This document shows positions 29,870 through 33,764 of a DNA stretch of 33,764 nucleotides, in pieces. A model generated the notes under the pieces. That model searched no databases and was not told the DNA's origin. It was given only the letters and a program-made list of their open reading frames with translations. Both the position numbers and the translations under genes were made by a program. Numbering within the stretch: the stretch's first letter is position 1; each line of letters opens with the position of its first letter. The stretch comes from Candidatus Poseidoniales archaeon (GTDB lineage Archaea > Thermoplasmatota > Poseidoniia > Poseidoniales > Thalassarchaeaceae): contig QQRX01000026.1 in NCBI GenBank assembly GCA_003602595.1, positions 1 through 33,764 on the forward strand. Reading direction: 5' to 3'.

Positions 29870-30553
29870 ATGGAATACGATAAAATGACTGTTGCACAAT
29901 TAAAAGATTTACTCCGTGAAAATGATTTACCAGTTTCAGGAAAAAAAACAGAATTAATTGAACGTTTATCTTCAATTTCTTCCGAAAAAGAAATTCCAAA
30001 AGAAGAATTAGCTGAGGAAGAAATTACTGATACAGAAGAAGCCTCTAGTTCAGAGGAATCTTATTCTGAAGACTTTTTTGAAGAGGACGAGGATTTTTAT
30101 GATGACTTTGGAGGGATACATACTGCTAGGCAGAAACCAATCTTGGATGAGGAAACAAAAACTATGCTAAAGTTTAGAGCTGCCCAGAAAAAGAAACAAC
30201 CAGCATTCCGTAGGCAAGAATGGTTTAGGTACAAACGATTATCTCATTCTGGTTGGAGAAAACCAAAAGGTTACCAATCAAAACAAAGACTGAACATGAA
30301 ATATCGCACTCCTATGGCGAGAATAGGGTTTGGTAAGATATCTGCTGTAAGGGGTCTACATTCTTCCGGATTTGAAGAAGTTCTAATACATAAAATTGAA
30401 GATTTAGAATCACTAAATCCAGAGAAACAAGCTATAAGAATAGGTTCTTCTGTAGGAAATAGAAAGCGTTTATCAATCCACGATCGCGCTGATGATTTGG
30501 GGCTAAGGGTTCTCAATCGCCGCAGAATTGATCGTAAGGGGGACTTACAATGA
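29870..30553 (+). CDS. rpl32e: Large subunit ribosomal protein eL32 (L32e) with N-terminal SAP domain
   Basis: 227 residues, against about 130 for a plain eL32. Residues 6-35 (MTVAQLKDLLRENDL, then PVSGKKTELIERL) match the SAP helix-extended-helix consensus, a DNA- or RNA-binding fold. Residues about 40-80 are an acidic linker of E, D and S. The eL32 core starts near 95: FRRQEWFRYKRLSHSGWRKPKGYQSKQRL, YRTPMARIGFG, VRGLHSSGFEEVLIHKIEDLE. eL32 is an archaeal/eukaryotic large-subunit protein. In haloarchaea the same position carries a different, helix-hairpin-helix, extension. GGAGG precedes ATG 29870; the stop overlaps eL19. Confidence 0.95.
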   Translation: MEYDKMTVAQLKDLLRENDLPVSGKKTELIERLSSISSEKEIPKEELAEEEITDTEEASSSEESYSEDFFEEDEDFYDDFGGIHTARQKPILDEETKTMLKFRAAQKKKQPAFRRQEWFRYKRLSHSGWRKPKGYQSKQRLNMKYRTPMARIGFGKISAVRGLHSSGFEEVLIHKIEDLESLNPEKQAIRIGSSVGNRKRLSIHDRADDLGLRVLNRRRIDRKGDLQ

Positions 30554-32784: not shown

Positions 32785-33174
32785 ATGGTATCAAGAACAA
32801 ATAAATTTCGTGGAAGCAGATATCATGGCAGAGGTAAAAAATCTGGCCGTGGTGCAGGAAAAAGAGGAGGAAGAGGAAATGCTGGTATTAACAAGCATCG
32901 TCTACTTACAAGATTGAAATATATGCCAAGGCATTGGGGTATGCACGGATTTAATAGACATCCAAGTCTAAGGAAAGTAAATATTTCCATAAATTTACAA
33001 GAATTGCAAGATATGGTAGAAGGAGATGATGTAAATCTAGGTGAACTAGGTTATGACAAACTTCTAGGTAAAGGAAAAATGAACCGTGGCATGAATATTA
33101 TTGTTGCAAAAGCTAGTGCTCGTGCAGTTTCAAAAGTTGAGGCTGCAGGCGGAACTGTTACAATAGAAGATTAA
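32785..33174 (+). CDS. rpl15: Large subunit ribosomal protein uL15 (L15)
   Basis: 129 residues, a little short. TNKFRGSRYHGRGKKSGRGAGKRGGRGNAG is the glycine- and arginine-rich N-terminus that threads into 23S rRNA; NISINLQEL and the end KASARAVSKVEAAGGTV complete it. GAGGTGTTATT precedes the ATG. It is followed by 32 bases to the secY start. Confidence 0.97.
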   Translation: MVSRTNKFRGSRYHGRGKKSGRGAGKRGGRGNAGINKHRLLTRLKYMPRHWGMHGFNRHPSLRKVNISINLQELQDMVEGDDVNLGELGYDKLLGKGKMNRGMNIIVAKASARAVSKVEAAGGTVTIED

Positions 33175-33206
33175 TAAAAAAAATAAGAGTAAAAAGGAGG
33201 AATCAT

Positions 33207-33764
33207 ATGGTAAATCGTAGACCAAACGTCATAGGTCTAGTAATACTATCTGCATTATATTGGGGGGCACTTTATTATTGGCTTAGAGCCGATTTACATT
33301 CTGATATTAGAGATGTCCAAATAGATGCTCTAATCCTATTTTCATTATCAATTCCTTATGTTGCATTTGTTATGTGGGGTGCAATGACAGATTTGCCAGA
33401 ATCCATAGCAAATATTCCTTACATAGGAAAGTACATAAAAGCAGAAATTTGGATAATCATATTAATCTCTTTTGCAATATGGGCTTGGATAGATCCTAGT
33501 CTTGTCGGCATTCTTTTCGTTGGAATAGCTCTACTTGGTCTACCAGTTGGACTATCTTTAGCATGTTTTCTCTACACAGGAGAAGGTGGAAGTAGATTAT
33601 ATGGTCTAAAAAGATTAGTTGATGTTTATCCAAGTATAACAAAACCAGAAGGGCATGTAAGATTTAATCAAAAGCTTTGGACTACTACCTTAGTTCTAAT
33701 AATTTATTTCGCAATGACTAACGTAATGATTTATGGTCTATCTGATTCCACATTAGATATATTC
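33207..33764 (+). CDS. secY: SecY translocase subunit with an extra N-terminal membrane region (3' partial)
   Basis: 186 codons are open to the window edge. ATG 33207 has a strong Shine-Dalgarno AAGGAGG (33194-33200). Residues about 8-26, 41-60, 80-95 and 99-123 are four membrane segments that do not look like SecY. From about residue 131 the archaeal SecY start appears: LYGLKRLVDVYPSITKPEGH, then the first canonical membrane helix LWTTTLVLIIYFAMTNVMIYGL. Archaeal SecY normally begins with the amphipathic helix and the KPEGHVPF segment, so about 130 residues are extra. There is no in-frame ATG, GTG or TTG just before the normal start that would allow a short form. SecY forms the protein-conducting channel and closes the ribosomal cluster in the usual archaeal position. 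Confidence 0.88.
   Translation, partial: MVNRRPNVIGLVILSALYWGALYYWLRADLHSDIRDVQIDALILFSLSIPYVAFVMWGAMTDLPESIANIPYIGKYIKAEIWIIILISFAIWAWIDPSLVGILFVGIALLGLPVGLSLACFLYTGEGGSRLYGLKRLVDVYPSITKPEGHVRFNQKLWTTTLVLIIYFAMTNVMIYGLSDSTLDIF

Follow-up and report, generated by a model that had tools for sequence, protein, structure and literature searches.

The SecY protein of the Poseidoniales is almost certainly a fusion of 14 helices with a two-step architecture, in which the ten-helix channel is preceded by an N-terminal annex of four further helices. SecY and Sec61 are among the most conserved membrane proteins, their accessory helices normally being separate subunits, and the Poseidoniales (Marine Group II, MGII) are globally abundant marine archaea. 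The gene begins near the end of the stretch of DNA analysed here (the window), which is one entire contig of 33,764 bp (G000:C25) from an assembly of approximately 1.37 Mb and approximately 81% completeness, and which ends inside the first transmembrane helix of the SecY core. SecY itself is known; an earlier description of the four-helix-extended form was not found in the open-access literature searched, where one MGII genome paper names secY solely as a conserved neighbour in the ribosomal operon (PMC6741140).

Position, start and reading frame of secY

The last open reading frame of the window is the start of secY, of which 186 codons are present with no stop before the contig end at 33764. 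The features of this region are as follows.

32785-33174, + strand: rpl15 (uL15/L15; PF00828), directly upstream of secY in the ribosomal-protein operon
33190-33206, + strand: Shine-Dalgarno sequence (GGAGG) and spacer of secY, recognised by sequence; an SD-like motif is common in relatives
33207-33764, + strand: 5' part (186 codons) of the ORF of the secY fusion, which runs off the contig here and is complete in relatives
33207-33398, + strand: hairpin A, with TM1 (residues 8-30), TM2 (residues 35-60) and a conserved DLPE loop (AF2); confined to Poseidoniales by profile search
33399-33572, + strand: hairpin B, with TM3 (residues 77-95) and TM4 (residues 97-122) (AF2); homologous to the two-helix module by hhalign and alignment
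33573-33662, + strand: conserved linker (by column entropy), with the amphipathic helix Y-x-G-x-x-x-S-R-L-Y-G-L (residues 130-138) and the KPEGHV loop, which would correspond to KPER by position
33663-33764, + strand: canonical SecY start, with the first core helix and the beginning of the plug domain (NF006341 from residue 134; PF10559 at residues 165-186)

The order rpl15-secY is common to Poseidoniales relatives and to MGIII, the sister lineage within the class Poseidoniia. In Poseidoniales secY closes the operon, and the adk and DUF106/EMC3 genes that lie 3' of secY in MGIII are located elsewhere (L230 and L231 versus L232). The ribosomal protein L32e of the window (29870-30553, + strand) is a SAP-L32e fusion: its N-terminus is a SAP domain (PF02037, E 1e-13, residues 3-33), after which comes a long acidic tract.

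The ATG of secY stands after AAGGAGGAATCAT, and the homologous start is preceded by an SD-like motif in 51 of 61 Poseidoniales loci; among the 1426 internal ATGs of the same ORFs, taken as a control, 132 (9.3%) are so preceded. In-frame start codons in the window are ATG at residues 1, 56 and 60 and TTG at residue 63, after which the next is ATG at residue 170. Because no start codon occurs between residues 63 and 170, translation in the window cannot start at the usual SecY position, and the contention of the first-pass annotation that the Shine-Dalgarno sequence and ATG lie approximately 130 codons ahead of that position is borne out.

An intact fusion in a single frame, 639-662 aa long and with a normal SecY C-terminus, is encoded by the nearest relative (98% identical) and by approximately 55 others, the open frame running to approximately 640-660 codons in Poseidoniales wherever the contig is long enough. 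Of the relatives searched, 52 of 59 matched the extended secY, as did 242 of 293 genomes at class level; none of the rows listed had an internal stop. The unmatched genomes are for the most part incomplete or fragmented, and two that are at least 90% complete (G042 and G043) gave nothing with this query. A search with a profile of hairpin A found the hairpin in G043, where the end of a contig interrupts it. The four-helix SecY is present in each of the 22 Poseidoniales genera sampled, with no stop splitting the extension. SecY ORFs are shortened or contain runs of N at L005 (G007:C2) and L022 (G026:C35), likely owing to assembly problems.

The alternative, in which a frameshift or read-through ties a separate gene further upstream to a SecY that starts later, has a negligible probability, has nothing found in its favour and is refuted by this comparison: the frame is single in 22 genera, the window offers no later start that would serve, and the Shine-Dalgarno sequence stands at the upstream ATG. 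The stop, frameshift or sequence error that would have separated the two parts was sought in the relatives and did not appear, and the first-pass reading of one fused protein is sustained by the shared frame, by the position of the Shine-Dalgarno sequence and by dN/dS values of approximately 0-0.12. The rest of SecY, whose intactness it proposed to confirm, is intact in the relatives; in the window's own approximately 81% complete assembly neither the remainder of secY nor any second SecY match was found.

The extension and its junction with the SecY core

Approximately 127 extra residues with four confidently predicted helices precede the normal archaeal SecY. The AF2 model of window residues 1-145, made with 53 sequences, has helices at residues 8-30, 35-60, 77-95 and 97-122, with pLDDT 94-97 over the helix block and pTM 0.82, in agreement with the four membrane segments noted at first reading; four helices were obtained again, at pLDDT of approximately 83-92, in a model of a congener's full fusion. 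Loop 1-2 has 0.3 K/R and 2.6 D/E, and K/R number 1.8 in the N-terminus, 3.0 in loop 2-3 and 4.9 in the linker. These predicted charges fit the positive-inside rule with a cytosolic N-terminus; since an even number of helices was added at each step, the N-terminus would stay cytosolic and the topology of the core would be unchanged.

Mean column entropy is 1.79 bits in hairpin A, 1.52 in hairpin B, 0.60 in the linker and 0.42 in the core. Conserved elements of the extension are YWGxLxYW in TM1, the DLPE loop, and V105 and G111 in TM4; the invariant positions are Y18, W25, P64, K78, V105 and G111, of which Y18, W25, V105 and G111 lie within helices. Neither a conserved charged groove nor conserved charged residues within the helices were seen. 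Among informative close pairs dN/dS is approximately 0-0.12 in the extension and 0.00-0.06 in the core, values that indicate purifying selection on the extension.

In the window protein the match to the NCBIfam SecY model (NF006341) starts from residue 134, the Pfam Sec61 plug domain (PF10559) covers residues 165-186, and in a congener (L006) the NCBIfam SecY equivalog models, NF006341 among them, cover residues 134-638 above cut-off. The protein thus belongs to the SecY/Sec61 alpha family by its ten-helix core with plug, of which the window shows the start of the core with the plug and the relatives the full core; the top Foldseek structural matches of the fusion are Sec61/SecY (7tm3, 1rh5). 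The short cytosolic N-terminus of usual SecY architecture, which is not a strict criterion, is absent, the four-helix bundle preceding the amphipathic helix. The linker between them is very conserved (consensus YxGxxSSRLYGLxRxVDVYPSIxKPEGHVRF). A Sec61 loop that contacts the ribosome is conserved in archaeal SecY as KPER (PMC11186639), and by its position in the sequence the KPEGHV loop would be the equivalent of this archaeal and eukaryotic element, in which case the annex would hang directly before a ribosome-facing part of the channel.

The profile searches and structure prediction called for by the first-pass annotation found nothing convincing for these four helices in Pfam, in the PDB or with Foldseek. 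No Pfam family covers the extension, although weak matches are scattered in single members; the best E-value in a PDB sequence search was 0.12; Foldseek returned nothing at E<=0.001 from the PDB and a viral library; and the phage records searched contained no match. For particular translocon partners, no match to PF00584 (SecE) was reported in the extension, neither PF03911 nor a GLxRYF-type cytosolic motif (Sec-beta/SecG) was found there, and Oxa1/YidC/EMC3 insertases gave neither a Pfam match (PF01956/YidC profile) nor a Foldseek match at E<=0.001.

Distribution and history in the Thermoplasmatota

Comparison of secY lengths, 639-662 aa across Poseidoniales relatives, with the rest of the phylum resolves three classes of approximately 640, 570-590 and 515 aa. 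MGIII has a SecY of 569-572 aa with a two-helix extension only, and this form recurs in several other Thermoplasmatota families, including Lutacidiplasma, Aciduliprofundum and UBA184, mostly at 584-592 aa. Other Thermoplasmatota have no extension, their SecY being 513-519 aa long in the first loci measured and starting with the N-terminus MAEE-KSxLYxLKP. The best 80 of 398 candidates for the two-helix module came from Thermoplasmatota, the exceptions being a single record labelled Neomarinimicrobiota and some titled only "Euryarchaeota archaeon". The record labelled Neomarinimicrobiota (L138, PCCQ01000053.1) encodes a SecY of the MGIII type and is probably a misbinned contig.

The two-helix module is homologous to TM3-TM4 together with the SxLYGLKP linker: hairpin B aligned with it by hhalign over 59 columns at E 4e-10, whereas controls did no better than approximately 4e-3. 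Half of the four-helix module is shared with other Thermoplasmatota and would be older than the four-helix form, which a reader of the sequence alone could not have seen. Hairpin A, including stand-alone copies, was not found outside the N-terminus of Poseidoniales secY at E<=0.001 in a profile search of 243 genomes of the phylum, and its hhalign alignment with the two-helix module is weak (E 1.3e-3). Hairpin A may or may not have originated as a duplicate of hairpin B: their alignment is partial, spanning only 22-24 columns at E 1e-3 and a probability of 21%, with SecY control windows at E of approximately 4e-3 to 0.02.

On a SecY-core tree the four-helix state needs one change, with support of 100, and by this tree it arose once; the distinction between some extension and none needs six changes, and so implies losses or repeated gains among the two-helix lineages. 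The tree is unrooted, with five MGIII rows that have non-ATG starts scored as two-helix, and whether a given change was a gain or a loss is something that we infer. Faster evolution of the SecY core in MGII was also considered: the stem of the tree is long (1.1), yet between-group identities show no clear excess when set against L15 and L30. A two-helix hairpin may have been inserted in Thermoplasmatota ancestors between the MAEE-type N-terminus and the KSxLYxLKP amphipathic helix, and may later have been lost or gained repeatedly, the second hairpin then being added in front, once, in the ancestor of the Poseidoniales.

Possible role of the annex and comparison with known systems

That the annex is a structural or accessory part of the translocon is somewhat favoured. 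It would lie in the membrane beside the ribosome-bound N-terminal half of SecY, just before the KPEGHV loop and the first core helix, a location deduced solely from its covalent attachment ahead of that loop and helix. There it might serve as an intramembrane cofactor, permanently joined to the channel at 1:1, which braces the N-terminal half of SecY, shapes the lipid and nascent-chain surroundings at its edge, or both, doing covalently the job of the separate small translocon subunits found elsewhere. The suggestion of a translocon accessory made at first reading is to this extent plausible, and a specific insertase role is weakly supported.

Replacement of SecE or Sec-beta by the extension is highly improbable. 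Its attraction is that the Pfam score of Sec-beta is unusually low in Poseidoniales and MGIII, but it is largely refuted by the genes themselves: a separate SecE candidate gene occurs in all Poseidoniales tested, that of the window's own genome lying on G000:C61, and a Sec-beta with the cytosolic motif (GIQQAAGLIRYFDEESED) is encoded separately in Poseidoniales relatives, including most congeners, although it was not found in the window's own incomplete (approximately 81%) genome. The first-pass statement that the extension resembles neither protein agrees with the profile searches. The Sec-beta of MGIII (L124, L125, L126) appears to have two hydrophobic segments rather than one in an ORF of 85-89 aa. 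In Poseidoniales the Oxa1-type protein DUF106/EMC3 (PF01956) likewise has its own gene, found in the genome of the window too, and has become longer (300-360 aa versus approximately 220). Relatives have SecE, Sec-beta and the Oxa1-type protein alike, and an explanation of the fusion by the loss of any of these was therefore rejected.

Two readings of greater weight, each rather unlikely, differ in how much activity they grant the annex. It could serve multipass proteins as an insertase or intramembrane chaperone built into the channel, comparable in function to SND3 or the TMCO1 units, as its place in the translocon would allow: eukaryotes set separate multi-helix insertases beside Sec61 (PMC12572126, PMC9630114), and the displacement of the Oxa1-type gene from the secY neighbourhood in Poseidoniales, together with its greater length, hints at a rearranged insertion machinery. 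The helices, however, have no conserved charged residue among their invariant positions, no insertase was matched by Foldseek or HMM, and the Oxa1-type protein is still encoded in these genomes. Doubtful to a slightly greater degree is a variant in which the annex is a channel-fused accessory for multipass insertion, held at 1:1 and with a fold unlike known insertases, which would make SecY a self-contained "multipass translocon". At the other extreme, the hairpins might have been gathered by constructive neutral evolution as a neutral or weakly selected decoration with no specific activity. The two-helix form is patchy, as its six changes on the tree attest, many Thermoplasmatota live without an extension, and the hairpins are far less conserved than the core (1.5-1.8 versus 0.42 bits), which also fits a mostly lipid-facing, weakly constrained decoration and keeps a largely neutral explanation alive; against it are the retention of the extension by every Poseidoniales genus sampled, a dN/dS far lower than 1, and the six invariant residues, P64 and K78 included.

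Archaeal SecY and eukaryotic Sec61 alpha (PF00344, NF006341) share with the fusion the full-length core with plug from approximately residue 134, but the solved SecY/Sec61 chains matched, of approximately 375-490 residues, do not cover the four extra N-terminal helices of Poseidoniales. The multipass translocon units (TMCO1/GEL, PAT and BOS, and fungal SND3) are similar in placing extra membrane bundles beside the channel (PMC9630114, PMC12572126), but are separate proteins of other folds, and neither their sequences nor their folds match the annex. DUF106/EMC3 (PF01956) is a membrane-insertion factor whose gene lies close to secY in other Thermoplasmatota, MGIII among them, but in Poseidoniales it is separately encoded and does not match the annex. 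The two-helix SecY of MGIII and other Thermoplasmatota has the homologous hairpin and linker, but is without TM1-TM2 (569-592 versus 639-662 aa). SecY is not always a ten-helix protein, a whole order having four fused helices and its outgroups exactly half of them, and the states of zero, two and four extra helices form a stepwise natural series in which to ask how translocons acquire accessory membrane domains.
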